A stretch of 64,000 nucleotides of DNA from assembly GCA_963971405.1 (NCBI GenBank), contig OZ020492.1, forward strand, positions 10,776,151 through 10,840,150, in the 5' to 3' direction. Below the pieces are notes generated by a model. It made no database searches, was not told the origin of the DNA, and worked only from the letters and a program-made list of their open reading frames with translations. Source of the DNA: Psococerastis gibbosa (Eukaryota; Arthropoda; Insecta; Psocodea; Psocidae). Of the stretch, positions 5,640 through 63,908 are shown in pieces. Position numbers and translations under genes: made by a program. Each line of letters starts with the position of its first letter. Position 1 is the stretch's first letter.

Positions 5640-5816
5640 GTCAACATAGCGGAGTTAGGGCTATAAAGCCGGAAAGCCCTCTCTTACACTCAACTAGGAA
5701 GACCTGGAACCGCCTGCTTTACATGCCCTCCGAAGCATGGCCAGAAAATGTAGCAAGCGTGGACTCAAACCAAAAACCTTTCGGGAGTCGGTACAACTAG
5801 TCTACACGTTATCCTG
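5640..5816 (-). mobile_element. SINE-1 copy (tRNA-derived), diverged
   Basis: On the minus strand it reads as the SINE described at 63684-63908: an A-box-like TAGTTGTACCGACTC head, then the conserved body GGAGGGCATGTAAAGCAGGCGG and CCTAACTCCGCTATG. The B-box region is degenerate (TTTGAGTCCACG). Confidence 0.8.
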
Positions 5817-6123: not shown

Positions 6124-6328
6124 TAAATAAATAAATAAGGACTTCTTATTGTTTCTATTACTAAGCCAACCTAGCGGAATTAGGGCCTTACACTCAACTA
6201 GGATGGCCCGGGACCGCCTGCTTTACATGCCCTCCGAATCATGGCCAGAAAATGTAGCCAGTGTGGGACTCGAGCCAACAACCTTTCGGGTGAAATTCAG
6301 AGTCAGTACTACGCTACATGTCTTGACT
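6124..6328 (-). mobile_element. SINE-1 copy (tRNA-derived)
   Basis: Full-length minus-strand copy. The B box GGCTCGAGTCCCAC and A box region GTAGCGTAGTACTGACTC are readable on the minus strand, and the 3' end has the TTTATTTATTTA tail (plus-strand 6124-6138). It lies 300 bp from another copy in the same orientation. Confidence 0.85.
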
Positions 6329-10140: not shown

Positions 10141-10420
10141 AGCACGTGTGATTTGCAAGAAACCACGAAATTTGGCCAAATGGGAAATAAAAACACTTTT
10201 TTTCACTGTAAATTTGCCTTATAATGTTTCACTATTTTCATTCCTATCAAAACTTAGGTTCTGCAGGACTAGGCCTGCTTAGGCTGTAGGAATTTTTAGC
10301 TTCCTAAAAGAAGTCAATTTGTAGACCAGCTAATAAGGATCTTAAACTTGACTAACCAAAAAAAGCCTTGAGGTTGAAACAATAATAATAATAATTAGTT
10401 TTAAAATCATACAAAACAAT

Positions 10421-10590
10421 CAAGGCCGTAGCCAGGATTTTTTTCGGGGGGGGGGGGTTAAAAATTTCATTGGTATCACATAGTGGTTTTTATTTTTCCT
10501 CTCAAAATCTGATTCTATCTAGTATCAAGCCATTTCATTTCGGGAGGGGGGGGGTGGACCCCGATGAACCCCCCCTTGGCTACGGCCTTG
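10421..10590. mobile_element. hAT-type MITE with poly-G ends (GGCCGTAGCC family)
   Basis: Terminal inverted repeat CAAGGCCGTAGCCA / TGGCTACGGCCTTG with poly-G next to each end. Flanking octamers AAAACAAT and AGGACAAT match at 6 of 8 positions, consistent with a decayed 8-bp duplication. The body is about 85% identical by eye to the element at 42223-42405 (TCTCAAAATC.GATTCTATCT). Confidence 0.8.
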
Positions 10591-11056
10591 AGGACAATTA
10601 AAAGTGTGCAATTAGTTAACATAACGATTAAGAAGGGCAGTGAAAAGGCAAGGAAAAGAAAGAAGAAAAAAGAATTATTTTTTATTTTATTTTATTTTAT
10701 TACCCAATGGCTGATAAACCTGACGGGCCTATGGATCAATTAAATTGTAGATTTCATTTCACTCTTTCTTTGTATCCTTACAGAATAATGATAATTCAAT
10801 AAAAATGATTCAATTTTATTTTTCAATAAAGACTTTATTATTATTATTGGCTACAAGAAGGCCGCCGGTATAACATACTCCCAAGGTGAGACCGCAATTT
10901 AAGTGAAAATACAGTGTAAAGATACTGCCACTTATAAATAAACTGTTGTAGAGTGTTCATTAAGTGCACAGTGTCACAAAATTCAACTGAATTCAAACCA
11001 ACTCGTGTAAGTTACTCAAAAGGAACTTCTAAATGCGAAGTCTAGTTAGGTGCCCA

Positions 11057-19665: not shown

Positions 19666-20466
19666 ATGGTTGTTAGGTAATTATATAGTATAATACATTG
19701 TATTCATAATATTAGTGCCTTTAGCAGTCTACAAATACCTGATTTAGCCATTATTATTGTATTAAAATTAATACCGTGGCATACAGGAACCTTTACAATA
19801 TAGTCCACGAAATATTATATTAAAATAATATTATAAAAAATAGTGCTGGGTTTTAGACATTTAGATTTAGAATAATGTGTATATAATATCACCGTGATAG
19901 GAACATCAACGTGTACATATCTACATACTTAAATTTCTACTGGGATAATAATGAAAAAATATTGTATAATAACTGTATTTAATGAACATTCTATATATTT
20001 GGTATAACTTTTATTAAAAATACAATAAGATTAATAAGTGTAAGTTGTGAAGTTATTTATTATTTGAGCCCAAGATGCTGCAAGCGTAAGTTAGTCTATA
20101 TGAAGTCTGTGGCGGAAGATGCCAATTTTCAGATACCATAATTATGAAGAAAATCCTTTTTAGAGTATATGGGTTAATTGTAACTTGTAAGAGTGGGCGC
20201 AAAGGCCCAAAATTCGCCCACATGGAAAATAAAGACAATTTTCTTTCTTTCTTTCTTATAGAACTGTAAGGTGCTTTTCACTATTATCACTGTAAAAGAT
20301 GGCCACATCCAACAATCAATTATGGAACAAAGTTAAATGTTTCCATTATCTACCTCAGGGGTGCCATTTGGAGTCAATTGGGGTCATTAGGGCTTAGGTC
20401 CTAACATGGAAATAAAATTTAAGTATAAAAACACATTGAAGAATGAACCTGATAATGACCCTGGGT
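19666..20466. other. Gene-free stretch
   Basis: AT-rich with no supported exon. A short TTTC microsatellite occurs at about 20240. GGGCGAATTTTGGGCC-type sequence near 20200 has no recognised function. Confidence 0.4.
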
Positions 20467-20954
20467 CAGTGGCGTAGCTAAGGGGGGGTGAGGGTTAGCG
20501 GGATCCGGACCCCCCAACATTTAGCAAATCAGAAAAAATTTCAGATACATCTTCCAAACAATTCCCTGGGGAGACCCCGGTCCCCCTGTTTCCAGTTTTG
20601 TTAATAATGTTATCGTTTGCAAAATCAAAATTTTTTTGCTGGCAAACTATTTCAGGCCTATCTTTGAAAAAACATTCCCCACGGTAGCCCCCCCCCCCCT
20701 TGTTAGCTGTAATATTCTTCATGTGTAAAATATGAGCATAACTGCTTTCAAAGTGCATAAATTTCACTATTTTGGGCCGATTCTTTTTCAAAATAATTCT
20801 CCCGGGGGAGACCCCCGGGCCCGCCTTTAAAGGTAATTTGAGAGTTGCGCTAAAGAAATATAGGAGGTACCCATCAAACATGCTTTTTATAGAACTAAAT
20901 GTACCTACTATATCATTCACATATAAATCTGCCTTGTTATCTTTATTACCATCA

Positions 20955-21240
20955 AGTAAACTTAAGTTGCCTCCTGTGGTAGAGCACAGTTACACCACCA
21001 GTAGTAGTATGGTTGGACACAGTCCCAGGCCACGGTGTGAGCCCATAGGACAGGGGACCTCCTGATTATAGTGGATTCCGAACCACTTGGGAAACACAGT
21101 GAAGTCACACGATTAGTTCGGAGGTGACCAGGACAAGTCCTACCATGTTTCCCTACCGGCACACTACCAAGTTATCTGCATCTTTGAACCTGCTCTGGTC
21201 CGCTGGATTCAACTTGGTAAGGCGGCCTACACCACCAGAG
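20955..21240 (-). repeat. Diverged copy of the 360-bp repeat B
   Basis: GATTATAGTGGATTCCGAACCACTTGGG, AAGTCACACGATTA and the ACTACCAAGTT..CAACTTGGTAAGGC end match the copies at 44969, 45973 and 49210. The left part (CAGTCCCAGGCCACGGTG.GAGC) is specific to this subtype and reappears at 31133. Confidence 0.75.
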
Positions 21241-21249
21241 TAATATCAA

Positions 21250-21416
21250 ACAAATCGGTCTCTCTACTCACAATAAATAAATCTTTTGCTTTTCACTCCC
21301 CTCACTACAATGTCATAAAACTGTACGATTCTCTACCAATTGAAATTAAGTCACAAATCAATCATGAAAAGAAATTTAAGAAATCCATCAAGTCATGGCT
21401 AAGATCCCTTCATTAA
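21250..21416 (+). pseudogene. LINE reverse transcriptase, extreme C-terminal fragment
   Basis: The plus strand encodes HSPHYNVIKLYDSLPIEIKS then HEKKFKKSIKSWLRSLH and a stop. The 'LY(D/N)SLP.EIK ... FKK.(I/L)K.WL' pattern is the C-terminus of CR1/Jockey-type LINE proteins. It lies inside the hAT-like element, presumably inserted there or carried along. Confidence 0.65.
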
Positions 21417-22051
21417 TCCATTACCTTAATTCAGACTTATGTTAAAACAAAAAATGTTAAAATAATTAAATTTAAAATAATTAAATTTCGATTTCCTACT
21501 TTCTATTGTTATTTTTTATTTAGAAAAAGCTATTAATATACATAACAATATAAGTAATAGTGTTATTTTAACTATACAGCTCATTAATCCTCCTGTTACA
21601 CATGTTACACATTCCCCTAATGCTCAACCAAATGGTTTTATTAGGGGAAGCCCACCATCGCATTACCTATGTACTGTATGTGATTTTTTATTCTTATTAC
21701 TAATTTGTGGGATACAGAGTTAGATTTTGATTTTTTAATTTTTTTATTGTGTTAATTGAATTAAATTTTTCTTTCTTACTTTCTTTACTATTCTTCGGCC
21801 GTAAAACCTAAACATTATTGGAATAGGTTACAAGACGTATATACATCAAAATGTGTAAAACTCCACAATTGCAGGCCTATTTTTTTCAAAAACCTTCCCC
21901 GGGGGAGACCCCCGGGCCCCCCGACCCCTCGTGTGGGAAAATTAAGATCACGCCCCTAATCATAATTGTAATCGTAACGTAATGATGTTGCATGAAAACT
22001 AGACCCCCCCCCCAAAAAAAAGAAATCTCTGGCTACGCCACTGCCCTGGGT

Positions 22052-22853
22052 GGCACGGACGCAGGGTAAACCTCCAGCCTTCCAGGGTCAATACACTTAG
22101 GCCTAGCTTATAATATAGTGTGTTTGTGCGCTGTTTTTAATTTTGTGTTATTATTATACCGTGTGTCTTACAACCGTCCACACGCTCCGTATCTTTAGCG
22201 CTAGATTTTGTATGGAACTCTCCTTTTTGTAGTCTATAAAACGGATGAATACAATTTTTCTTGGGCGTAACTACAATAAGGCTACCAGATTCTTGAAACC
22301 TCAAAACCGGACATTTATTTTATTGGACTAAGATTCCTGCAAAAAACTGGTTATACCTACATCATATAAAATATAAATTACACCGGTGGTAATCGTAAAA
22401 ATCGTAAAACCCCACTATTTTGAACTAATATTTTCAAATTTTTCCCACGGGGGAGACCGCCGGTCCCCCCACTGGTACCGGTTTGCATCATCTAGTAATG
22501 CACTGTAAATTAATGAGCCTTGCTTCGCTAACAATCACACCAATTGCACAATCGCTAAAAATTAGTTTGGCTTGTTAGGCTACACCCACATTTCCCGGAA
22601 TGGCCCCGCCAAAATCTGTACTGGACCCGCCCTTATATTACACGTTCTCATTACTCAACGTTTAATGGACCATAAGTAAGTAGGTACCTACCTACTAATA
22701 ATGCTCATAAAAATTATGTTTTAACAGTAGTCATGGCTGAATTATATAATAAAATAAAATAAAATGTTTTTGACATCTCCTAAGGCCCTCAAATGAAACA
22801 ATTTTCTCCTTTTTTCTCAAGAAAACATTTCTGGGGACTCCGGACAGGGCACC
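22052..22853. other. Gene-free stretch with a G+C hairpin module
   Basis: At about 22395-22480 the sequence AATCGTAAAACCCCACTATTTT..CACGGGGGAGACCGCCGGTCCC is a decayed copy of the module seen at 20765, 21850 and 50700. No exon is recognised. Confidence 0.5.
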
Positions 22854-23014
22854 TGCAGCCTGATCGAGGCGATTATAATACCGGTATTTATTTAATCCCC
22901 TAATAAACAAGATACTTTTGTAATGGAAAGTGCTATTCAAAATTTGTTTATTTACAGTTATAATCCTATGGTATTTATTTAACCCCGGTATTATAATCGC
23001 CTCGATCAGACTGC
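22854..23014. mobile_element. Short foldback MITE, about 30-bp arms
   Basis: GCAGCCTGATCGAGGCGATT plus ATAATACCGG at 22854 is mirrored by CCGGTATTATAATCGCCTCG plus ATCAGACTGC ending 23014. The centre contains two TATTTATTTAA(T/C)CCCC stretches. Total about 160 bp. Target duplication not readable. Confidence 0.7.
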
Positions 23015-23179
23015 TGGAAAGCGGAATTGCGCCGTACTGAATCCAGACATCTGGTAGTTAAACTACAACACTGCATTACCTACCTGATAGTTTTCTAAGG
23101 AATTTTCCTCGTTAAAATGCCGAGATTTATCTTGATATAGATAACTTACATAAAAACTGTAGCCATGGCACACCGTATG

Positions 23180-23516
23180 CAGTGGCGTAGCCAGAATTTT
23201 TTTTTTTTGGGGGGTCCAGTTTTCGTAAAGTTTGCCCGTTTATACGATAGGTTTTTGAATGGGGTGGTGTTTCATTTCATTTAACGCTACCCCCCCCCCC
23301 CCGGGATTATTTTTTAAAAGTTAGGCCAGAAATAGTTTGTCGGCAAAAAAATTCGATTTTGCAGACGATAACTTTAGGTTAGGTTAGGAAAAGGGGGACC
23401 GGGATCTTCCCGGCGATTTTTTTAGATAAATATAAAGAATTGCTATTTTGCTAAACTTTTTTGTGGGGGGGGGTCCGGACCCCGCTGACCCCCCCCCCCC
23501 CTTGGCTACGCCACTA
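23180..23516. mobile_element. hAT-type MITE with poly-T/G and poly-C ends
   Basis: Ends CAGTGGCGTAGCCAG and TTGGCTACGCCACTA; flanking octamers ACCGTATG (23172-23179) and ACCGTGTG (23517-23524) match 7 of 8. GGGTCCGGACCCC lies inside the right end. Internal AAAATTCGATTTTGCAGACGATAAC corresponds to sequence in the 1.58-kb element at 20467. Confidence 0.85.
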
Positions 23517-23743
23517 ACCGTGTGACTACGTATGTAACAAATCAGTCGTACCTACCTACCATTTGTACCATTTCGTTCGTTTTTTCATTTGGAAATGTAA
23601 ACATTCGGCTAGCTAGCTAGAGAATAATTAATAAATTAAATAAGTAAAAATAAAATTACGATCAATCAATCAATCAAAATATATTTCGAAAAATATACAG
23701 TATACGGTGTTTGTTTCTTTTCCCTATTATATGGGCTAGGCCC

Positions 23744-23909
23744 CAGGGGCGGACCCAGCCCATTTGGGGGGGGGGGGGGGTAGTTGTGGGTCAAAATAGG
23801 AAAAACATATGTAGGATAGATTAAATCAGAGCGTAATAAAGCAATTTACAATAGATTTACCAAACTGGGGGGGGGGGGGGTAGGTGCCCCTCCCCTGTAT
23901 CCGTCCTTG
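23744..23909. mobile_element. hAT-type MITE (GGACGGA family), exact 8-bp duplication
   Basis: Ends CAGGGGCGGACCC and ATCCGTCCTTG; the octamer CTAGGCCC flanks both sides exactly (23736-23743, 23910-23917). Poly-G of 14 and 13 bases flank a 90-bp body containing TAGTTGTGGGTCAAAATAGG, also present at 51313 and, inverted, near 9920. Confidence 0.88.
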
Positions 23910-23964
23910 CTAGGCCCGTTGTATGGTTGTATGGTCTACTCCTCAACTTATCAACAGTCTCTGT

Positions 23965-24055
23965 CAAGGCTTGGTTGTGGCAGTAACCACTATGCAATAT
24001 CCAATGAAATTTCTACCCCCCCCCCCCCCAGAAAAAAATCCTGGCTACGGCCTTG
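23965..24055. mobile_element. Very short hAT-type MITE (91 bp), exact 8-bp duplication
   Basis: Ends CAAGGC and TCCTGGCTACGGCCTTG; GTCTCTGT flanks both sides exactly (23957-23964, 24056-24063). The left terminal repeat is cut down to CAAGGC, so only about six bases of the inverted repeat remain. Confidence 0.75.
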
Positions 24056-24063
24056 GTCTCTGT

Positions 24064-25802: not shown

Positions 25803-30307
<4,505 letters not shown>

Positions 30308-38287: not shown

Positions 38288-38508
38288 TAATAGTTAGGGC
38301 ACCCTTGGCACAAGACTAGCAGTGCCTTAGCCAATAAAGGAATTAAAATTCATTAAAAATAAAAAATTAAATTAAAAGTATAAAGTAGGCTATTTCCAAA
38401 ATATTCAATTCAATCTTTTAGTACAGCTTATAATGGTAATAACGCAAGGTGTACCCGTGCTCTGAGTGCACATTACGGTGACAATCCTCCTTTGGTTGCG
38501 CTTATTTT

Positions 38509-39367
38509 TGCTTTCCAATTTATACGTAGTATAAGGAAAGCATTGTGATGGTCGAAATTTCCGATTCCGAGATTTCAACGGATTTACACGTTTTGAGGTC
38601 CCACGAACCCAAAAAAGTGGTTTTTACGAAATGTCTGTCTGTCTGTATGTCTGTCGGTCTGTCTGTGCGTCGATTTCCGGGCAAACTACTCGGTCGATTT
38701 TGATGAAATTCGGCATGTAGGTTCACAAAAATCATATCTCGGGAACTTTTTTTTATTTGGGGGATAACTCAATTTGGGGGGTTTTATTCTCAAAAACTCC
38801 AAAAAAGTCTAAAAAAATTATTTCCCAAAAACGGCTGCAACGATTTCTTTTAAATTCACATATATTGTAGTTGTTATTAATGTTAATAAAATGCGGGGGG
38901 TCGCTTACCCCTTGATAGTTTGCTTCTGGGGGTAAAAAAATAAAAATAACTTATTTTTAATGAAAAATGACTAAAAAATAATTTTCCTGCGAAACCTTTC
39001 CATCGATGATTTCTACCTTCAGGCATGTTTTAGGTGTTAAATTGAGTAACGAAATTGGACAGGTTGCTTTCCCAGAAAAGTATTTGGTTTTGTACAAAAA
39101 AATGTTTTTTTGAAAAAATGATAGATAATTCACGCTCAAACGCATTGCGTGCCCTGCCAGTATTGCTGTGTTAATGTGTTGGTCTGAACTATCTAGAATT
39201 TAGAATTTACCTCACCTCCAGTGACGTCAGGTGGACAACCCTCCCCCCCCCCCCGAGATTTCGGAACTTTAACCATAGGAAAATTATTTACCATTAAATT
39301 ACTCATTTTCTCTATCTACTAATTTTGACAAATTGGAAAGCATGTTCGAGTAAACTCGGACCGGTTC
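38509..39367 (+). repeat. 800-bp dispersed repeat D, full copy
   Basis: The most complete copy. It begins TTGCTTTCCAATTTATACGT with an internal palindrome (TTATACGTAGTATAA, GGAAAGC) and ends CAAATTGGAAAGCATGTTCG then AGTAAACTCGGACCGGTTC, where CGAGT/ACTCG form a hairpin. TGCTTTCCAATTT near the start and AAATTGGAAAGCA near the end are inverted. No protein is recognisable; frames inside are chance. Confidence 0.85.
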
Positions 39368-40690
39368 TTTATTAATGTGGTGGGTACGCTTGGACAACTT
39401 AATTTTTAAAACTTCGAACTTGGATTTCTCAGTGCACTTGGGAGATAATCGAAGGGGAAAAAACCTAACGGGCGTAAATAATCAAATTGCACAAGAAATA
39501 TCCATCGTGGAGCCGTAAAAGTGATGTCATCAAGGACGGTACCTAGATAAATTGTTCTTCAACTCATTTTGATCGTCTGTGTGGTTTGTGGCCGACACTA
39601 AATAAACGCGGCAGATCAGCATGATCGACATGACTTGTAAGTAAGTAAAGTAACTTTTAATTTCCTTCAAAATATAGATTTACAGTTATTTTATAAGTAT
39701 ATAATAACAGTAGGAGGGGACCCTTTAGGACGAGCCTGTGCTGGGCTCCCTTTTAATATAGCTAATAGCTAAAAATAAACATTATTATAAGGACCAAAGC
39801 TAGGACTGATACGGGGGGGGGGGGGGGTCTGTTGTAAGTCAATGTATTACGTTTAAATTAAATCGATACAGATCATGACAGAATTAGCTGCCATTTTGTT
39901 TTGTTTGACCATCCTGCCACTACACAACGTGTTCAGTCGCTACCTTGATTTAGACTAGAGCTGACTCATACAGTTGGTAATAGTTGAATATTAAAAAGAA
40001 AAAACTGTAAGTACCTCTTATAACTCATTTAATTTGCCGAATAATTTTGATAGGAAAGCTAATGATTGCAATGTGATAGCTATCAAGGTGTTGAGCGCGG
40101 TCACAACTCTCTAGGCTTTCGGGCTAAATGAACTCCCGGCCTATCTTTTGGCTCAGCCACGTAGCCTTTAAAAATAAAAAAAATAAAAAAAGCTAATGGA
40201 AAATTGAAATTGCCTTAAAATACGTCGGAGATAAGCCAATTGCCAATGCTATAAGGACAGAGAATAATTTGAGGAGATTTAGAACAGCCTGCCATCAGTT
40301 TCTGGGGAGTGAATGAATGAGTGCCTGATTTGTTACATAATTATTTTCTCTTTTTTTGGCAGGAAAACATGGTGTGTAATATAATTTTTATAATAATTTG
40401 TAGACCAAAATAAGTTAGCTGGCAGAGTACCTAGCCCTTCTGGACTACAGTTCGCATAATATAAAGAAATTTTTCATTTCATTTCTTTTCTAACATTTCA
40501 ATGCTATGTATGATACGATATATAAATAAAAAAGCACTAAGTTTAAGATTAATTTTGCGTAACGCCAAAAGAACCAAGCGTGACTTAGGCCGTACTCCCC
40601 ACTAAAACATACATGGTTACAATGTAACTGCAGAGGCTTTCACGGCCGGAGTCAAATGAAAAATCAGTAGAATCGGGGCTGATGGGCCGT
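39368..40690. other. Gene-free stretch, possible 5'UTR exon of the downstream gene
   Basis: Poly-G at 39812-39827. A good donor (AAAACT|GTAAGTACC) lies near 40006 and could end a non-coding exon spliced to 41427. Otherwise nothing is recognised. Confidence 0.3.
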
Positions 40691-40877
40691 GGTCGAAATG
40701 AAAGCGAACTTCCAAACGTTTCGTCAACATCTGCGGTCGACATCTTCAGTGAAACTGCGTAGACTTCTAAGATACAATCTTAAAAGTCTATACAATCTTA
40801 GAAGTCTACGCAGTTCCACTGAAGATGTCGACCGTGGATGTTGACGAAACGTTTGGAAGTTCGCTTTCATTTCGACC
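40691..40877. mobile_element. 187-bp foldback with hammerhead-like motif in each arm
   Basis: Arms 40691-40775 and 40796-40877 are almost perfect inverted copies. Each contains, on opposite strands, TTCCA (or TTTCA), CTGAAGA, a six-pair stem (GTCGAC with GTTGAC), then GAAACGTT and TGGAA. This order resembles a type I hammerhead ribozyme with minimal helix III, as known from Penelope-like elements. One extra T (40826) between CTGAAGA and the stem departs from the consensus. Confidence 0.7.
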
Positions 40878-41049
40878 AGAATCCAGAATTTTTGTCAGAA
40901 GGCGAAAAGGTACAATGGGTTTACCCGGGGTTACTATTTATTATTTAGAGTATATTAAGTGGCATTATTTCTGTAAATTATTTATATAAATACAGAGGGG
41001 CCGTGGCATACTAGGGGGAGGGGGGCTGAGTAACTGCCACCCATAGATA

Positions 41050-41781: not shown

Positions 41782-42222
41782 CGCCATTTCACCAGGTGAA
41801 ACCTCCAGACTAATAGGCACTCTCATTGTAACGTGTCTGGTAGTGTCCGATCGGCAGCAAGTTTTTAATTTCATCCATTTTTTTAAGCCATTTGTTTTGT
41901 CTTCCCTACATTGTATGATATAGCTTTTTTATTAACATTCATTTTGGCTTCTGATTAACATTAACAAGTATTTCTCTTAATTTACATTGCAACTTACTGC
42001 GTTGTCTTGATTTTTGACGAAACCATAAGAATTTAAATATTTATGGTGAATTGTACTGCATGAATGTAATAAACTATAAATTAATAATATACCTACTGTA
42101 TTTCTACGCAATATAGAGCTTGAATTTTTTCTAACAAAAATAATAACTTCTTGGCTCAGTGCCCAAATACCGCCTATTGAATAGTTTGATTACTGCATAT
42201 TCATGAATCAGTTAGTCGTCAT
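41782..42222. other. 3' flank of GFRP-like gene 1
   Basis: AT-rich; AATAAA near 42068 (TGTAATAAACTATAAATTAA). No further exon. Confidence 0.4.
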
Positions 42223-42405
42223 CAAGGCCGTAGCCTTTTTTTTTGTTCGGGGGGGGGAGGGGTATTTCAGAAATTTTATTGGATATTACATAGTAGTTTT
42301 TATTTTTCCTCTCAAAATCCGATTCTATCTAGTGCCAAGCCATTTCATTTCGGGGGGGGGGGGGGGGTTGAACCCCCATGAACCCCCCCCTTGGCTACGG
42401 CCTTG
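42223..42405. mobile_element. hAT-type MITE (GGCCGTAGCC family), exact 8-bp duplication
   Basis: Ends CAAGGCCGTAGCC and GGCTACGGCCTTG. GTCGTCAT flanks both sides exactly (42215-42222, 42406-42413). Poly-G runs border the body; the body matches 10421-10590. Confidence 0.9.
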
Positions 42406-42699
42406 GTCGTCATCTGTTTGGTATACTTTCCCTGGTAAATTAATTATTACGTAAGGGTAGTAATAGTTAAGTAAAGTTAATACAAAACAGTTATATTCGA
42501 TAGGTTACTTATTCACGCTTGTAATTTTATATTTGGTTAATGTTAGTGCTTATGTTCCGTATTTTGTTACGTAAAAAGGCCAGGGAAATTAATTGGATTA
42601 TACACGTACTTCCAGGTAAGAGCATACTATATTGTATTTTTATATTGTAGGCGTTATGCGTTTAATATAGTAACAAAGCCGAACAGTTTGCTTCCCCAA

Positions 42700-45785: not shown

Positions 45786-45972
45786 AAAGTCACGGCATGT
45801 AGACTATAGTGGTATACGGACTTTAACTTTTACCCGAAAGGTTAATGGTTCGAGTCCCATACTAGCTACATTTTCTGGCCATGCTCCGGAGGGCATGTAC
45901 AGGCGGGACTCCCCAAGTTGAGTGTGAGAGAAGGCTTCATAGTCCTAACTCCACTAGGTTGGCTTAGTAATA
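45786..45972 (+). mobile_element. SINE-1 copy (tRNA-derived), interrupted by repeat B at its 3' end
   Basis: A box region TGTAGACTATAGTGGTATACGG, B box GGTTCGAGTCCCAT, then the body CGGAGGGCATGTA..GGCGGGACTCC and CCTAACTCCACTAGGTTGGC. The 3' TTTA tail is missing because repeat B follows at TTAGTAATAT. Confidence 0.85.
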
Positions 45973-50110: not shown

Positions 50111-50218
50111 ACCCAGCAGGGGAGTAGCTATAGGGGGGAGCCTTCCCCCAATAATTTGATTTTTGGCGAAAGTTGGTAATTCGCCTTTGCTCAGTTGGCA
50201 AAAACAGAGTTCCATACA

Positions 50219-50930
50219 CAGTGGCGTAAATAACACCCCCGCAACCCCCGCGGTGCGGGGGGGCGCACCATCGCTGGGGGCGCACTTCTGTCCCCAAAAA
50301 TAATAAGATAATTTACCTATAGAAATCTACGTACGGTAATTAATAAAAATATTAAATATCAATTTGTTATCCATGTTGACTATAATTATGAAATTAGGAA
50401 CTTCATCTCATTTAAAAATAAAAATTATCTTTCTCGCCAATCCTGCGCTTCATCAGTGGCGGCAGAATCCACCAGGTACCAACAAAACCAGACAGCGGCT
50501 GGTAAGTTTTCCATTATTATTTTATTATTTATACTACAATATTTTTCTTACCATTCCACCAAGACCGTAGGCAAGGGGGGCTCATTGGGCTGCAGCCCCC
50601 TCCCCACACCGAAATGAAAAGTTGAGAATTAAATGCATTTAGTACGGTAACATGAATATGTCTTCCTTTGTAAATTATAAGCTTTACTGCTATTAAAATC
50701 GTAAAACCCCACTATTTCGGGCCTATTTCTTCAAAAAAATTCCCCCGGGGGAGACCCCCGGGCCCCCCTGTTTTCTGCAATATCAATAAGCATTCCTTTG
50801 TAAAAAATCCTGGCTACGGCCTTGCACTCCACTATTGACTATCACTTATAACAAAGATAAAACAATACGACAAGTTAGGGCGCACCAAAGGTCTTGCGGG
50901 GGGGCGCAGCAAAAGTTATTTACGCTACTG
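50219..50930. mobile_element. hAT-type element, 712 bp, exact 8-bp duplication
   Basis: Ends CAGTGGCGTAAATAAC and GTTATTTACGCTACTG; TCCATACA flanks both sides exactly (50211-50218, 50931-50938). CCCGCGGTGCGGGGGGGCGCACC near the left and GCGGGGGGGCGCAGC near the right form GC-rich subterminal blocks. A second MITE is nested inside. Confidence 0.9.
50560..50824. mobile_element. hAT-type MITE nested inside the 712-bp element
   Basis: Ends CAAGACCGTAGGCAAGG and CCTGGCTACGGCCTTG; flanking octamers CATTCCAC and CACTCCAC differ at one base. Contains the hairpin module CCCCCGGGGGAGACCCCCGGG at about 50743. Confidence 0.85.
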
Positions 50931-50938
50931 TCCATACA

Positions 50939-51346: not shown

Positions 51347-51538
51347 AGTCAGGACATGTAGAGTAGTGGTACGGACTCTGACTTTCACCCGAAAGGTGGT
51401 TGCTTCGGAAGGCATGTAAAGCAGGCGGTCCCGGGCCTTCCTAGTTGAGTGTAAGAGAGGGCTTTATAGCCCTAACTCCGCTAGGTTGGCTTAGTAATAG
51501 AAACAATAAAAAGTCCTTATTTATTTATTTTATTTTAT
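51347..51538 (+). mobile_element. SINE-1 copy with deleted B box
   Basis: Starts AGTCAGGACATGTAGAGTAG with an intact A-box region; after CCCGAAAGGTGG about 40 bases including the B box are missing; the body (GGCATGTAAAGCAGGCGGTC) and tail (TTTATTTATTTTATTTTATT) are complete. Confidence 0.85.
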
Positions 51539-52550
51539 TTAAGAAATATTACAAAAACACTGTCGTTACAAATTACAATAATTACAAACCCGGGTCTTGA
51601 AGCATCGGACATTTGTTTGAAGGTTATTAAAAAAGGATGCAGAACATAGAATATTCAGAAGTTCAAGGATTGAACGCAAGAAAATTGCACACTGCTGATA
51701 ATGCCGCAGTTATGCAATTACCTAGGTACTACTAGATTACTCTTTAAGATAGACTTACATGAAAGGTAGTTATAATAGAGTTATAGAGCAGCTTACGATA
51801 GCTACTACCCAATGATTTTCATGAAATAATTACAACACCAAAAATTATTAGCACCTTATATCGATATAGGTATGATGCATTCTACAACATGAATAGTAGT
51901 ATTAGACTAAAGCTTTAATAAACTATGTGGAAAACTAAATAAAAAATAAAAATTGCCAGGTTTTAGAGCGCCAATTTGCTACGGTCCATATCCTCTTAAG
52001 TAGCACTAATTGACATATCCCGAACGCCAAGCCCCGAATTTTGAATTTGAATGAAGTCAATTAATGGACAAGACTAATCTATTGCACGATAAATTTTGGG
52101 CAATGGTAATCCTTGTTTCACCCACGACTTGGTTGGTGAAAACAATCAAATTTTTAATATCTTCTGAATTTTTTGGTTAGGCTGTAGACTAGTTTGATAA
52201 GGAGACTTGAAGGCCTTCACTCTGTAACAAAAAAAGACTTATTGATGTAACTGCAAACAGTGGGGTACCCATTCCTAACTTTGTGACGGGGATGATTGTG
52301 TGAATAATATGTCAGTTATTCGTTCACTGTTTTTCCTATACATCGATACCCTAATTAGCAAACCACTTAACTCCAAAATGGTGAATTTTCAGGAGAGACT
52401 ACAACTACAACCACAACCGTGTTTGGCCTTAGTTTTTGAAGGGGTGAAATAAATAGGCTATTAGGTTAGGTCCAAGCTTTAAAAGCTGTGGCCAAATCGT
52501 GGATAATAAAGGAGTTTTTACTACATATATGGCATCTCATATGTCTGTCT
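51539..52550. other. Gene-free stretch
   Basis: No exon or recognised repeat. Confidence 0.45.
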
Positions 52551-52734
52551 CAGGGACGGATCCTTGGGGTGGCGGTCGAAACCCCCCCCCCCCCCCCCGA
52601 CAGAAATTTTTTTATACTAGATAGAATGGACTTCTGAAGGAAATTAAGAAAAATTATTACTCAAGTAAAAGAAACGCGATATTTTTCCGGCCACCGCCCC
52701 CCCCCCCCCCCGAAAACTTTTGTAGCCGTCCCTG
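52551..52734. mobile_element. hAT-type MITE (GGACGGA family), exact 8-bp duplication
   Basis: Ends CAGGGACGGATCC and TAGCCGTCCCTG; GTCTGTCT flanks both sides exactly (52543-52550, 52735-52742). Poly-C runs of 17-18 lie inside both ends (in the same direction), with GGTGGCGGTCG and CGGCCACCGCC as inverted subterminal blocks. Confidence 0.88.
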
Positions 52735-53119
52735 GTCTGTCTCTATATCATCAATATCTTATGAGAAATTGGACTTAGCACCAAAAAACTTAAAGTGGGG
52801 TGTCAATAAGGAGCCAGATGCCACAAGCTATGTGCATTGGATTATCACCATATTTACCATTTTAAGGAGCATGGAAGGACGATTTGTTACAAAAAAATAA
52901 TTTTTGAGTTGGTGGTATGCAACGTTAGTTTGGTGCAAAACGGGTATATAGTATTCACGAATATTAATAATTAAAATATTACAACCTATAACATAACAAT
53001 TGAGATTTCAAAAGGTTTTAGTCTCTCCTGCATTTACAGTTTTAAGAGACAAATCGCCTTTTGCATACATGCTTCTAATTTATTTATACTGCTGCAATTT
53101 TCGGATCAACAGTACCTAC

Positions 53120-53734: not shown

Positions 53735-54274
53735 TCTCGGTTTTGTGTGAATTATTAAGGCTATTAGATGAGGGGATCATAGAACGAGCAGATTATGACA
53801 CTGAGTGGTGTTCACCAATAGTTTGTGCTCCGAAAAGGGACTAAGTCAGGGTATGTGGTGATGTCACCAAGCTTCACTCCGCCATCAAGCGGCCATTTCA
53901 CCCCCTCCCGAATGTAGACTATACCTTGACTAGACTAAAGGGCGTAAAGTCGTTCTCAAAGATAGACGCAACAAAATCTTTCCATCAAATCACGATAATC
54001 AGAATTTAACTACGGTACGTTCATATGTCTATTTGGCAGGTTCAGATTCACTAGGCTACAATTTGGTATTAATTACACCACAGAACTGTTTTAAAAAAAA
54101 ATCAAAAGTACTAGATGGCATAGGCCTAGATGAAATAGTTAATCATGTTGATGTCCTTTTAATTTTTGCAGAAACACAAAAGAAAATGTCAGAATATTAA
54201 AAAATGTGTTGTTAAAATTAAAGGCATTACAATGAGTGAAGAAAAATCTGAATGTAGCAAAAATAAATTAAAAG
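53735..54274 (+). pseudogene. Gypsy-type LTR retrotransposon reverse transcriptase relic
   Basis: Plus-strand pieces: LLDEGIIERADYDTEWCSPI, VCAPKRD then a stop, VRVCGDVTKLHSAIKRPFHP, then KGVKSFSKIDATKSFHQI (motif A region), and further along VNHVDDVLIFAETQKEN (the xxDD catalytic motif). Order and spacing are those of a Gypsy pol RT. Stops and frameshifts are frequent and no LTRs, gag or integrase are visible; it is a short dead fragment. Confidence 0.85.
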
Positions 54275-55097
54275 GAACCGGTCCGAGTTAACTCGAACAT
54301 GCTTTCCAATTTATAAAGTAGTAAATAGACATAATGTGTCATTTCATTGTAAATAATTTCCCTATGGTCAAATTTTTCGGATCCCTCGGGGGGGGGGGGG
54401 GTCCACTTCAATATATTAAAAACCCCTTAAAACTCAATTGTATATTCTGCAACGAACAGACCAATACATTGTAACAGTAGTAACAATAACAAGGCACGTA
54501 ATGTATTGGAAAGTGAATTTTCCATAATTTCTCCAAAAAAGAATTTTTAGCACAGAACCAATATTTTTTTTGGAAAGCAACCTATTTGGTTTTGTTACTC
54601 TATTGAACACCTAAAACATATCTGAAGGTAGAAATCATCGACAGAAAGGTCCCGCAGAAAAGTTATTTTTTAGCCATTTTTCATGAAAATTGAGTAATTT
54701 TTATTTTTTACCCCCAGAAGCAAACTATCAAGGGGCAAGCGACCCATTGCATTTTGTTGGCATTAATAACGACTGCAATATATGTGAATTTAAAAGAAAT
54801 CGTTGGAGCCGTTTTTGAGAAATAATATTTTTAGATGTTTTTTTTTTAGAATAGAACCCCTCCAAATTGAGTTAGCCCAAAATAAAAATACAATGGTTCA
54901 CAGGTATGATTTTTGTGAACCTACATGCCAAATTTCATCAAAATCCGAGTAGTTTGCCCGGAAATCGATGAACAGACAGACAGACAGAGCGACAGACAGA
55001 GCAACAGACAGACATTTCGTAAAAAACACTTTTTTGGTTCCTCAAAACGTGTAAATCCGTTGAAATCTCCAAATCGAAAATTTCGACCATCACAATT
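54275..55097 (-). repeat. Repeat D, minus-strand copy
   Basis: Begins (plus strand) GAACCGGTCCGAGTTAACTC and continues through CGATGAACAGACAGACAG to TTCGACCATCACAATT. The 5' hairpin end of the element is lost. It abuts the Gypsy relic. Confidence 0.85.
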
Positions 55098-55523
55098 CAA
55101 TTACGGACTTCGATGGCATAGTGGTACTTGTTCGTACTTGTGCGAGTCCCTACACATCATGCGATCGGTGACCTGTCGTAACTCAACAAAGGTATTACCT
55201 ACAGAGGCATCTGAAGAGGTTATTTGGATATATTCATTGAATTGTTTGTATGCCAATAATCACTTTTGGCAGAAAGTTCTTGGTCATATTTGAACAAAAT
55301 CGGGCATTCACATAGATCCAAATAGAGTGCATGCCATAGTAGATTTTCCACCTAAAGCTATAAGTAGGTACCAAATTTATACTTTTGTCAGGCATGATAA
55401 AATATGTCGCCAAATTCATTCCTAACAAATCAGACATTTTATTTTATGCATTGAATTATACAGAGGGCTATTAATTCCATTCTTGCCTACATTGCTATAC
55501 TATAAATTAATTAATAAATAAAA
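55098..55523. other. Spacer between two repeat D copies
   Basis: About 430 bp with no recognised gene; a frame near 55234-55437 on the minus strand has no support. Confidence 0.4.
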
Positions 55524-56330
55524 GAACCGGTCCGAGTTTACTCGAACATGCTTTCCCATTTAAAAATTAGTAAATAGACATAATGTGTTAATTCATAGTA
55601 AATAATTTCCCTATGGTTAAATTTCGGATCCCTCCGGGGGGGGGGGGGGGTCCACTTCAATATATTAAAAACCCCTTAAAACTCAATTGCATATTCTGGA
55701 ACGAACAGACCAATACATTGTAACGGTTGTAACAATGACAGGGCACGCAATGTGTGGATTTTCTATAATTTCTTTAAAAAATAATATTTTGCACAGAACC
55801 AAATACTTTTTGGGAAAGCAACCTTTTTGGTTTTGTTACTCTATTGAACACCTAAAACATGACAAAACAAAACTAGGAATCATCGATAGAAAGGTTCAGC
55901 AGAAAAATTATTTTTTCGTCATTTTTCATGAAAAATTTAATTATTTTGATTTATTTACCCCCAGATGCTAACTATCAAAGGGGTAAGCAACCCACCGCAT
56001 TTTGTTAGCATTAATAACCGCTACAATATATGTGAATTTAAATTTTTAGAATTTTTTAAAAGTTTTTTGAGAATAAAACCCCCCAAATTGAGTTAGCCCA
56101 AAATAAAAAATATTTCGAGGCATAATTTTTGTGCACTTACACGCCAAATTTCAAAAAACCGACCGAGTAGTTTGCCAGGAAATCGATGAACAGACAGACA
56201 GAGCGACAGAGATTTCGTAAAAACTATGGGTTCCTGGTACCCCAAAACGTGTAAACCCGTTGAAATCTCGGAGTCGAATATTTCGACCGTCACAAAGCTT
56301 TGCTTATACTACGTATAATTTGGAAAGCAA
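55524..56330 (-). repeat. Repeat D, full minus-strand copy
   Basis: From GAACCGGTCCGAGTTTACTC to ACGTATAATTTGGAAAGCAA. Same orientation as the copy at 54275. TAAATAAA-like sequence flanks both ends but is too simple to call a duplication. Confidence 0.87.
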
Positions 56331-56861
56331 TAAATAAATAATCATTTATTTGCAAACTATAATGCTACCATAAAATCGAGTCTAAATAAGTATGGAACGG
56401 CGATCAGTAGTTTACTCACCAGGCATGTTACTTGAAGAAAACCTCAGAATGTTTTGAAAGTCTTATTTAATTCCGGCCTGCCGAAAGGACTAATGTACCT
56501 GACAGTATATAAATGGTATCACCAAGATTGCGTCTTGGGTGTTTACTATCAGCTGTGCTCAAAATCTTAAATGCACGCGTTCTGACTGATCGCCCTTGCA
56601 ATTACATCTAAATTTATGCAATTGACATACCCTAATAGCTAATCAAACTTGTAACGGGTAATGAAGATTCAGATACGGATACTGAAAATTTTGCTCGCAA
56701 GAAAATAACTAATAATGACATTCAAAATTTTGCTTGTTAAAAGTAAATCATAACTATAAGTAAACTTAAAACATTCGGTTGCACAATATTTTGTTGTAAT
56801 TAGTCTGTGTTGTGCATAATACTAGTGACACAAAGTAGTGTATTCGCGCACGCAGCTCAGC
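56331..56861. other. Gene-free stretch
   Basis: No exon or repeat recognised. Confidence 0.4.
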
Positions 56862-59793: not shown

Positions 59794-59930
59794 GAATAAA
59801 TAAAATAAATAAGGACTTTTTATTGTTTCTATTACCAATTCAACCTAGCGGAGTTAGGGCTATAAAGCCCTCTCTTACACTCAACTAGGAAGGCCCGGGA
59901 CCGCCTGCTTTACATGCCCTCCGAAGCATG
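59794..59930 (-). mobile_element. 5'-truncated SINE-1 with 10-bp target duplication
   Basis: Minus-strand copy lacking the tRNA-like head; TGGGTTGAAT occurs just left of the AT-rich tail (about 59788-59797) and just right of the truncation point (about 59929-59938). This is the expected footprint of incomplete target-primed insertion. Confidence 0.85.
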
Positions 59931-59938
59931 GGTTGAAT

Positions 59939-61192
59939 GTGTTTAAGTTAAGGCATATTTCATTGCCTGTTTTTTTTTTTTTAATTGAATTATTTGAATA
60001 TATACTTATACAAAATAGATGCCTCCCTCCTTGGAGCTATATAAAAATTCCTATAGCTTACGGCCTGCAGAAGTTTCAATGTTGTGTGAACATAGCGTAA
60101 GATCCGATAGAAATTCTATGAGGGAATGGCTCTGCTCTTCTATATATTATTATGTGGTACGGCGTCAAATGACCTACCAGCTAAGGGCGGGTGTTGCGTA
60201 AAGAAGAATTTATTGTTATATTTTAACTTTAATCGTCAACCTAGTCATGATCCATCGCATATATTATAGTAATTCTGTGGTCCAACCCTTCAACAAAATC
60301 AAAGTTGCCGCTAAAACCATTGAGCTATTATGTCTTTCCAGCTTATTATATCGTCAACCGGCTCCAATTTACGTGGATGGTTTTAGCAACACATCGCCAC
60401 GAGTTGTGCTAATTACCACATTCCAAATCACAGTAACTGACTGAGTAACGGATTTTAAACCCGTAAACCTGTACGTTTACGATTCAAATTAACTACTTCT
60501 AGAAACAATTTCACCGCCAATTTGGGTTTGTTTTTGTTGGCACGCCTGCCTGTCAAGTGTCATGGCGGTCGGTTGACAATTTTCGTGTTTGGGACATTCG
60601 GAATAAATGATTATATTATTCTTTAGCGGTGAAAAATAATTAAATGTGCGGTATGTAATGTAAGAAATTAATATGTATCATCTATATTGATTGTTCGTAA
60701 GCATTCTTTCGAATTCATCTTTGAATCAACATAATTTATTGGCAATTGGGATCTGCCAGTTTAACCTTACTTTATTCGGTTATCAGCACTTATCTAACCC
60801 AAAGGTACGTATGGCAGTATGGCATTTGTCAAAGAAACAGATTTGTAAAATGTATATATTTAATAATAAATTTTATATACTTAAACAGCTAGCTGATTTG
60901 ACCATGACAAGGCTTGACAGCGCCGAGCAAAATGACTAGAGTCGCTTGGCTCTGAAGGCCCTTATTCGCGGCCGCCTCCTGTTCAGCGGGCCAATCATAT
61001 TATAGGCTAATTGGGAGCTTTCATCAATGGGAAGACTATAGAAGACATTTTGCCAAAATATTTTATAATAATAATAATTTCATTCACCCTTAAGTATAAC
61101 AAGTTCAGTTGGATGGGGAGTTCAAAATACAGGCCTGGCGGCTTGAGCACCCTTTTAGATGATGTACAAATAAATGTTCTTCTTGCTTTCCT
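59939..61192. other. Gene-free stretch, possible upstream region of the BTB gene
   Basis: Small frames lack support. GCG|GTATGT near 60649, after a GTCATGGCGGTCGG-containing stretch, could be a first-exon donor; this is speculation. Confidence 0.3.
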
Positions 61193-61995
61193 ATTTAAAC
61201 GTAGCATAAGGAAAGCTTTGTGATGGGGCAAAATTTTTGATTCCGAGATTTCAACGGATTTACACGTTTTGAGGTACCAGAAACACCAATAAAGTGGTTT
61301 TACGAAATGTCTGTCGGTCGGTCTGTCTGTCTATTCATCGATTTGCGCGCAAACTGCTCGGTGGATTTGGATGAAATTTTGCTTGTGGGTTCACAAAAAT
61401 GATGCCTCGGGACCATTTTTATTTTTATTTTGGGCTAACTCAATTTTGGGGGTTCACCCTCAAAATACGGCTAAAACAATTATTTCTCTAAAACGCCTCC
61501 AAGGATTTTCTTTAAATTCACATGTACATTGTAGTCCTTACTAATGTAAACAAAACGCAATGGGTCGCTTGCCCCTTGATAGTTTGGTTCTGGGGGTAAG
61601 AAAACAACTCAATTTTCATGAAAAATGATTAAAAAATCATTTTTATGCGGAACATTGTTATCGGTGCTTTCTATCTTTACGTATGTTTTAGGTGTCAAAT
61701 AGAGGAACAAGTCCGGACAGGTTTCTTTCCCAAACAATGATTTGGGTTTGTGCAAAAAATTATTTTTTGAAGAAATTACGGAAAATTCACGCTCCAATTC
61801 ATTGCGTACCCTGCCATTATTACTGTGTTGTAATGTCTTTTTCTTTGTAATGCAATTGGTCTGCCCGTTCTAAAATATGCAATTAAATCCCATTGATCAA
61901 TTCAGTGCTTTGGGAAAGGGGATGCCGAGGGATCCAAAATTTAACCATAGTAACATTATTTTCTATGAAATTACTCATAGTATTATCTACTAATT
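61193..61995 (+). repeat. Repeat D, diverged plus-strand copy
   Basis: Starts TTGCTTTCCTATTTAAACGT; same internal order as 38509, with a distinct 3' third (GTCTGCCCGTTCTAAAATATG, GATCAATTCAGTGCTTTGGG) shared with 42700-42905, defining a subfamily. Confidence 0.83.
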
Positions 61996-62499
61996 GATAA
62001 ATAGGAATTAGCATACTAATTTCTATAGGACATGCTACAACTCATATCATAATCTGTTAGAAATATAAGTATGTAAACTTGTATTGAAGCAAATAAATAC
62101 ACAATAATAGTGAGGTCGCTCTTTGTAGACCTGTAGCAATATTTCCTGCCCTAAAATATAAGAAAATAATAATTAAACATTCAACTATTACAACTAAACG
62201 TACATATCAATAATATAATAATAATAATTTAACATAATGAACAGTCTAAAGTCTAATCCACTATTTCAAATAAGGATTCCACCTCTTCTCGTCTCATAAG
62301 CCATTTATAGGGCTAGGATGAATTTTGAAAACTTATTCATGGTTATAGTGAGCAGCAAGTATTAGGGAAGTTCATTCAGGCTGATTTAACAATTCTATAG
62401 TGAACTATATAGGGGGAAGAAGTCTCCATATGCACTACTTTATCGTTTGCATTGTAGAATCCGCCCTTAAACTACTAAGTTTTATTTTTTAATTTGTAG
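61996..62499. other. Presumed intron or 5' flank of the BTB gene
   Basis: No repeat recognised; ends with the acceptor TTTTTTAATTTGTAG (62499). Confidence 0.4.
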
Positions 62500-63683: not shown

Positions 63684-63908
63684 AGTCAGGACATGTAGAG
63701 TAGTGGTACAGACTCCGACTTTCAACCAAAAGGATCTTAGTTCGAGTCCCACAGTTGCTACATTTTCAGGCCATGCTTCGGAGGGCATGTAAAGCAGGCG
63801 GTCCCGGGTTTTCCTAGTTGAGTGTAAGAGAGGGCTTTATAGCCCTAACTCCGCTAGGTTGGCTTACTAAAAAATTAAAAAGTCTTTATTTATTTATTTA
63901 TTTATTTA
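63684..63908 (+). mobile_element. SINE-1, best-preserved copy (tRNA-derived)
   Basis: A-box region TGTAGAGTAGTGGTACAGAC and B box TTAGTTCGAGTCCCAC are about 35 bp apart, as in a tRNA gene and its internal RNA polymerase III promoter. The tRNA-like head is followed by a conserved body (CGGAGGGCATGTAAAGCAGG, GAGGGCTTTATAGCCCTAAC, CCGCTAGGTTGGC) and a TTTA tail (63883-63907). GGGCTTTATAGCCC is a hairpin in the body. Confidence 0.88.

Follow-up and report, generated by a model that had tools for sequence, protein, structure and literature searches.

The window analysed here, the whole 64,000-nucleotide (nt) stretch at positions 10776151-10840150 of contig C20 in the Psococerastis gibbosa genome G000 (409 Mb in 68 contigs), contains several families of short transposable elements that carry runs of G or C beside their ends. 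These poly-G elements are probably non-autonomous, Tip100-like members of the hAT superfamily, in which the end signal includes the G tract, set at one of two distances from the terminus. In this layout the tract of a near end lies directly past the terminal repeat, at nt 15-17, on the 5' side of the transposase gene, and that of a far end, on the gene's 3' side, follows a spacer rich in A/T that adds about one helical turn, so that it starts at nt 23-30 (median 26).

The two-distance G layout and the hAT relatives that share it

The corrected termini are CAGTGGCGTAGCC for family A, CAAGGCCGTAGCC for family B and CAGGGRCGGAYCC for families C and D. A first-pass annotation of the window had given the ends as CA(G/A)GG-type, which is hAT-like, but the real ends start with CAG or CAA, two or three bases farther out. 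Taking the first run of at least four G, read inward from the end, as the start of the tract, we scored 44 elements, drawn from ten families with the pattern or something like it, and 34 of these combine a near tract (nt 15-19) with a far one (nt 23-35). The layout fits eight families (A, B, C, D, F, G, H and a family encoding a transposase of 850 amino acids (aa)), several of them known from one to three copies, and this fit across families, with eight fitting and two not, is more independent evidence than the pairs within a family. Median starts, read by hand from the first 100 lines listed for each family, are nt 16 and nt 26 in both family B (53 ends) and family A (43 ends), and the tracts reach 23 G in the elements measured. 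Across the genome, six-G runs beside family B ends start at nt 15-17, 18-22 and 23-30 in 1,792, 134 and 2,152 cases, respectively, where an end with two runs may count twice; the controls were all 0. Along contig C1 to 19.5 Mb, 185 family B ends form 31 facing pairs at most 600 bp apart, 29 of which join a near to a far end (mixed pairs expected from the end frequencies, 15.5), the other two being one far-far and one near-near pair. Five of these ends have both kinds of run and were scored as near; dropping the four pairs that contain them leaves 25 of 27 mixed. With about 4,000 counted family B ends bearing a run of at least six, the layout accounts for many of the G/C homopolymers in this genome.

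Genome-wide searches for each terminal repeat, as the first-pass annotation had proposed, recovered thousands of A, B and C/D ends, with controls close to zero. The exact family B end CAAGGCCGTAGCCA occurs 5,409 times (reversed-pattern control, 0) and the exact family A end 1,456 times (control, 2), and a six-G run follows within 20 nt at 429 of 732 forward A ends. C/D ends with a six-G run 1-18 nt past the repeat number 1,517 on the forward strand (controls, 0 forward and 1 reverse); the reverse-strand count is inflated by overlapping matches. The pattern CAGTGGCGTAGCCAGGGGGG gave no matches in viral contigs. Sampled copies for which the second end was found carry 8-bp duplications. From family A we took eight loci and 20 more spread over the list, with a pattern that demanded GG after the repeat and the best of several candidate ends; 15 of these 28 copies were paired, with 0, 1, 2 and 4 mismatches in 5, 5, 4 and 1 duplications, and 14 of the 15 agree at six or more of eight positions. 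The 20 family B copies were taken at intervals of five from the first 100 places listed, which all lie on contig C1; 10 were paired (five without a mismatch, four with one and one with two), two candidate pairs with 8 and 6 mismatches were rejected as spurious, and the other eight copies gave no pair; the pairing score includes the duplication, so that the agreement figures of both families lean upward, above all those of B.

Where unoccupied relatives of insertion sites are visible, the G tract belongs to the inserted unit, and the aligned empty sites have no G run. Neither of the results that the first-pass annotation had named as counting against its reading, copies lacking consistent 8-bp duplications or empty sites with the poly-G tract, was obtained. 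A family H element (L039:4748-5074), with 16 G beside one end, is inserted in a repeat found unoccupied elsewhere: among 18 spanning matches, 10 were aligned and none has a G/C run longer than 4, the target word GTAAGAGA being single and intact in 8 of the 10, with a deletion in one and an altered letter in another. The element at L051:3638-5691 sits in an array of ~228-bp units, five unoccupied examples of which contain no run longer than 5, and one of them closely matches the insertion word. The site of an A copy in L005 has one unoccupied relative (L047, the same place as L038), with no run longer than 2. As a separate observation, a short interspersed repeat, GTAAAGCAGGCGGTCCCGGG...CTAACTCCGCTAGGTTGGCTTAG, which occurs in the window at 5680-5785, 6187-6291, 45832-45972, 51401-51535, 59795-59930 and 63726-63906, is the target of two hAT elements in L039.

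The assignment to hAT made by the first-pass annotation is borne out by the 8-bp duplications in the genome samples, by a hAT transposase part between family B ends (L051) and by a poly-G hAT of the 850-aa family (L047), and we regard it as very nearly certain. Within the window, 8-mers picked at random 100-1500 bp from each other match with one mismatch or none in a fraction 0.00077 of pairs, and with two or fewer in 0.0069. In a 343-kb scan for inverted-end pairs (12-nt ends, at most three mismatches; duplication, at most one mismatch), duplications of 6, 7, 8, 9 and 10 bp were found 143, 43, 38, 5 and 2 times; the 8-bp count exceeds the trend between 7 and 9 bp, and in the 8-bp list the G/C-rich ends are those of poly-G elements, with AT-rich chance pairs mixed in. 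Terminal inverted repeats of hATs have the start consensus CA(G/A)NG, and those of the poly-G elements are short and follow it, with a slight departure in the 850-aa family (CATAGG). A transposase with the C-terminal dimerisation domain lies between the same ends in family B (L051, a 426-aa C-terminal part) and in the 850-aa family. Family B copies of ~180 bp are short, non-coding and numerous and have the ends of L051, as expected of miniature inverted-repeat transposable elements (MITEs). Family A copies of ~300-330 bp are likewise short and many; a coding relative with A ends was not found.

A transposase between ends of these kinds, which the first-pass annotation had advised looking for, was seen with the family B (L051) and 850-aa types of end. 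The 2,054-bp element at L051:3638-5691 has both B ends (one letter altered in one), a far tract of 16 G and a near tract of 12 G, duplications CCTTGAAA/CCTTGAAT and a frame that matches Dimer_Tnp_hAT (E=1.1e-11); its first 37 nt are 97% identical to the family B MITE at 10421-10590. The 3,093-bp element at L047:3753-6845 is flanked by the exact duplication GTCAAGCG and has ends CATAGGCGTAAATT, with G runs that start at nt 15 and 28. Its 850-aa frame contains DUF4371 and Dimer_Tnp_hAT and matches a Hermes chain (E=1.7e-7); no BED domain was matched, and DUF4371 is preceded by a Cys/His stretch that resembles a TTF-type finger. L048 and L050 are copies with L047-type ends. A search with the L051 protein, in which 98 of 717 candidates were scored, contains among the scored relatives a group near 49% identity. 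At two loci of this group (transposase stretches 49% and 48-52% identical to L051) the 3' side, the side that was seen, ends in CAGGGGCGTATTTAGGATTTTATTTC plus 12 or 9 G, and the 3' flanks of the two agree closely up to this end and diverge beyond it. In L051, L047, L048, L050, L099 and L100 the far end lies 3' of the transposase. Related transposase-bearing elements share the G layout, so the runs appear to belong to the end signal, and the near/far rule provides a search pattern for mobilising partners.

Three loci considered as coding B elements (L011, L030 and L032) were rejected because the B end near the hAT domain faces away from it; they are taken to be neighbouring insertions. Two hATs of 3767 and 3217 bp, encoding 836 and 826 aa and present in dozens of copies (L039:895-4661, L040:3469-7235 and many equal-scoring frames), were set aside as mobilising partners, having ends CAGTGCCGTGCCGT and CAGGCCCGGCCCG and no G run within 45 nt. 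Open frames of equal length and score on many contigs suggest that these two hATs were recently active.

Origin and possible role of the G tracts

In the mechanism we propose, the elements, mostly MITEs of ~90-400 bp, would descend by internal deletion from Tip100-like hATs. The transposase would bind the 13-14-bp terminal repeat together with the adjoining G tract and excise the element, and the target would be cut with an 8-bp stagger that yields the 8-bp duplication. The tract may be the contact of the transposase's N-terminal finger, with the unequal spacing marking the two ends and the layout possibly having a part in how they pair, while tract length would drift by replication slippage. 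We propose that the tract stays present and in position because a copy that loses the end signal is no longer moved.

Several observations weigh against this account. Ten of the 44 scored elements break or cannot show the near/far rule: three have the same class at both ends (L088, near-near; L078 and L081, far-far at the four-G threshold, the latter since its near tract is interrupted), and seven have one run only or an odd run. Families E and I do not fit the layout, and most of the ten families are represented by one to three copies. Because copies of one family share descent, the 29 of 31 mixed pairs on contig C1 are not independent events and attest only to a conserved layout. About 40% of forward A ends have no six-G run within 20 nt, and in the fetched stretch no partner could be accepted for 13 of 28 sampled A ends and 10 of 20 sampled B ends. 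The transposase at L051 is a C-terminal part only, so that this element is a deleted relative and could not mobilise copies autonomously. Between A, C or D ends no transposase was found. Finally, other hATs of the genome are built differently: the high-copy 836-aa and 826-aa hATs have the run-free ends described above (one end of the latter has a 9-base G/C run within 60 nt), a 735-aa hAT has no G run in its first 32 nt, and two more types have only GGGG.

The families have much in common, as the shared origin suggested in the first-pass annotation would predict: the end layout of A is also that of B, similarity between A1 and A2 extends over 222 nt, A1 and B3 share 117 nt of interior at 79%, and stretches of 73-81 nt in B2 and B4 match D1 at 75-77%. 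Common ancestry, seen in the interior stretches and ends common to A, B and D, explains much, and it is a serious possibility, at somewhat below even chances, that the tracts are merely inherited, as neutral passengers beside ancestral ends that vary by slippage and have no role in transposition. The wide variation in tract length and the presence of other hATs without the layout are in keeping with this. However, the layout, with both distances kept, also occurs in the 850-aa family, which has different ends and a transposase 27% identical to that of family B over 399 residues; a blastn comparison of the L047-type element with the A, B, C, D and E sequences reported no match at E 1e-3. A fixed two-distance layout in transposase lineages 27% identical strengthens the case for a functional tract, and we judge the odds that the tract has a function to be roughly balanced. 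A tree of 12 proteins, all from this one genome and several with short or long-branched rows, separates family B, the 850-aa type and the 836/826-aa group from the 735-aa type with full support and gives no order among the first three. The layout is thus either ancestral on the B/850/836/826 side and lost in 836/826, or a mark of family B and the 850-aa type.

It is improbable that the tracts, instead of being inherited, were made or lengthened by a process at the ends, such as slippage or repair following an excision or insertion. The length of the run at a given position varies widely, and interrupted runs such as GGGAGGGGGG resemble mutated longer runs, but the tracts start at a fixed nt after conserved letters (AGGATTTTTTTC in family B and AGGATTTTATTTC in the relatives with 48-52%-identical transposases), and the aligned empty sites have no tract. 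P elements are another superfamily with 8-bp duplications, and the sole point in favour of such an origin, or of repeats with chance duplications, is that the MITEs carry no gene; the same ends flank a Dimer_Tnp_hAT transposase with 8-bp duplications, the duplications are far above chance, and we give this alternative almost no credence.

Elements and other features of the window

All eight elements named in the first-pass annotation are present where it placed them; their 8-bp duplications are exact in six and differ by one letter in the other two. A ninth (10421-10590) is added here. Its description of them as MITEs with homopolymers beside the ends holds for most, the family A element at 20467-22043 exceeding the usual MITE length, and it extended the end tracts to all of them, whereas 50219-50930 has 7-base runs without the common layout. 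The family A MITE at 23180-23516 was aligned to 14 copies from the genome. Inside near ends, for example at 23455-23505, there is a second block, GGGGTCCGGACCCC in family A and GGGCTGCAGCCC in some family B copies, which forms a palindrome followed by a C run and could be a second contact site.

Table 1. Duplication-flanked elements of the window, with target duplications and the position of G runs counted inward from each end
Element	Position	Length (bp)	With duplications	Strand	Duplication	Ends and G runs
Family B MITE	10421-10590	170	10413..10598	+	AAAACAAT / AGGACAAT, 6/8 match	left far, nt 26; right near, nt 16
Family A element	20467-22043	1577	20459..22051	-	CCCTGGGT, exact (20459-20466 and 22044-22051)	near-type at 20467, run from nt 16; far-type at 22043, run from nt 31
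Family A MITE	23180-23516	337	23172..23524	+	ACCGTATG / ACCGTGTG, one mismatch	left far, nt 30; right near, nt 16
Family C MITE	23744-23909	166	23736..23917	+	CTAGGCCC, exact	left from nt 23 (15 G); right from nt 15 (4 G)
Family B short remnant	23965-24055	91	23957..24063	-	GTCTCTGT, exact	right far-type; left shrunk to CAAGGC
Family B MITE	42223-42405	183	42215..42413	+	GTCGTCAT, exact	left far, nt 27; right near, nt 16
Family E hAT-like element	50219-50930		50211..50938	.	TCCATACA, exact	ends CAGTGGCGTAAAT; no near/far layout; G7 at nt 39 of one end, no run found at the other
Family B element, inside 50219-50930	50560-50824		50552..50832	-	CATTCCAC / CACTCCAC, one mismatch	left near-type; no G run found at the other end; interior common to 20467-22043
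Family D MITE	52551-52734	184	52543..52742	.	GTCTGTCT, exact	left near, nt 16 (4 G); right far, nt 24 (15 G); interior partly common to family B

The window holds 40 runs of at least seven G or C, where 20 first-order Markov simulations gave 4.15 on average, and 28 runs of at least ten, where they gave 0. Sixteen of the 40 lie no more than 90 nt from where a duplication-flanked element ends (14 of these reach a pair score of 3 or higher, as do 7 of 200 random positions, and two belong to 23744-23909), three more (20688, 23290 and 24016) are inside such elements, and four lie in or beside decayed family C copies (9529, 9822 and 9936 by alignment, 9760 by sequence reading only). The earlier claim that the elements explain most G/C runs is therefore generous: 23 of 40 are accounted for, 19 of them (about half) firmly. 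Five runs (27813, 28270, 39243, 54388 and 55636) lie in an unrelated repeat, and 12 of the 40 are in neither group. A repeat of ~850 bp, with copies 71-85% alike, occurs at 27552-28357, 38502-39376, 54262-55096, 55513-56337 and 61177-62014; two copies are near neighbours at 54262-56337, four have a G/C run at a similar place, and its ends are not hAT-like.

Elsewhere in the window, a 679-aa open frame of a long interspersed nuclear element (641-2680) has reverse transcriptase, RNase H and zf-RVT matches, an open frame at 25773-26165 matches a chromodomain (E=2.3e-16) and is HP1-like at first sight, and an inverted repeat at 40690-40878 has 84-nt arms, 96% complementary, with 21 nt between them. 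The reverse transcriptase, the chromodomain frame and the hAT elements give the window a eukaryotic content.

Comparison with known systems

The elements are ordinary hAT MITEs of a known kind. We found no literature on G tracts beside hAT ends in the part of the open-licence text that was searched, and the two-distance G layout was not found in print. In Repbase, consensus sequences of invertebrate hATs frequently have G runs following ends of this kind, so that earlier workers may already have noticed the tract as such. Pegasus is a hAT relative. The Pegasus-like silkworm elements BmMITE-13 to -16, of 263-431 bp with N8 duplications, are described with ends CAAGGGCGGATCCAG, CAGTGGCGGATTA, CAGTGGCGTACCTA and CAGTGGCGGATTT (PMC2997013), near-identical to the A, C and D ends here; the comparison is by description, and the passages of that paper on these elements mention no G tract.

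Passages of PMC3942097 describe both the Tip group and the 8-bp duplications of hATs. The 11-bp end of Tip100 from Ipomoea is given as CAGGGGCGGAG (PMC12511174), which the left end of family C matches at 10 of 11 positions and family D at 9 of 11, a likeness of terminal repeats; the A, B and 850-aa ends are more distant. The account of Tip100 in the relevant passages of PMC12511174 contains no mention of a G tract.

The two-distance layout also resembles the signals of V(D)J recombination, which have spacers of 12 and 23: each system has two kinds of end, and the distance separating their two conserved blocks differs by about one helical turn. The sequence and the enzyme family are different, and for poly-G hATs a rule that unlike ends must pair is hypothetical. 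As a speculation that we think unlikely, one branch of hATs would use a G tract at ~16 or ~26 nt, one distance for each end and the longer one 3' of the transposase gene, to code its ends and to contact the transposase, the shift of one turn enforcing the pairing of unlike ends as a hypothetical counterpart of the 12/23 rule.

Hermes offers a comparison within hAT. According to the portions of PMC10368747 that deal with its ends, at its left end the BED domains of the transposase bind subterminal repeats lying at bp 11-27, and the right-end repeats do not engage them. The solved Hermes chains match the 850-aa protein, the subterminal repeats are arranged differently at the two ends, and the G-tract starts at ~nt 16 and ~nt 26 fall in the same stretch as bp 11-27. 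The Hermes repeats are described there as AAG(T/C), not G tracts, and the 850-aa protein has DUF4371 in place of any BED match. How a hAT transposase tells its ends apart is a question under study in Hermes (PMC10368747), and the near/far rule may help to answer it in a form that ordinary excision and integration assays can check.

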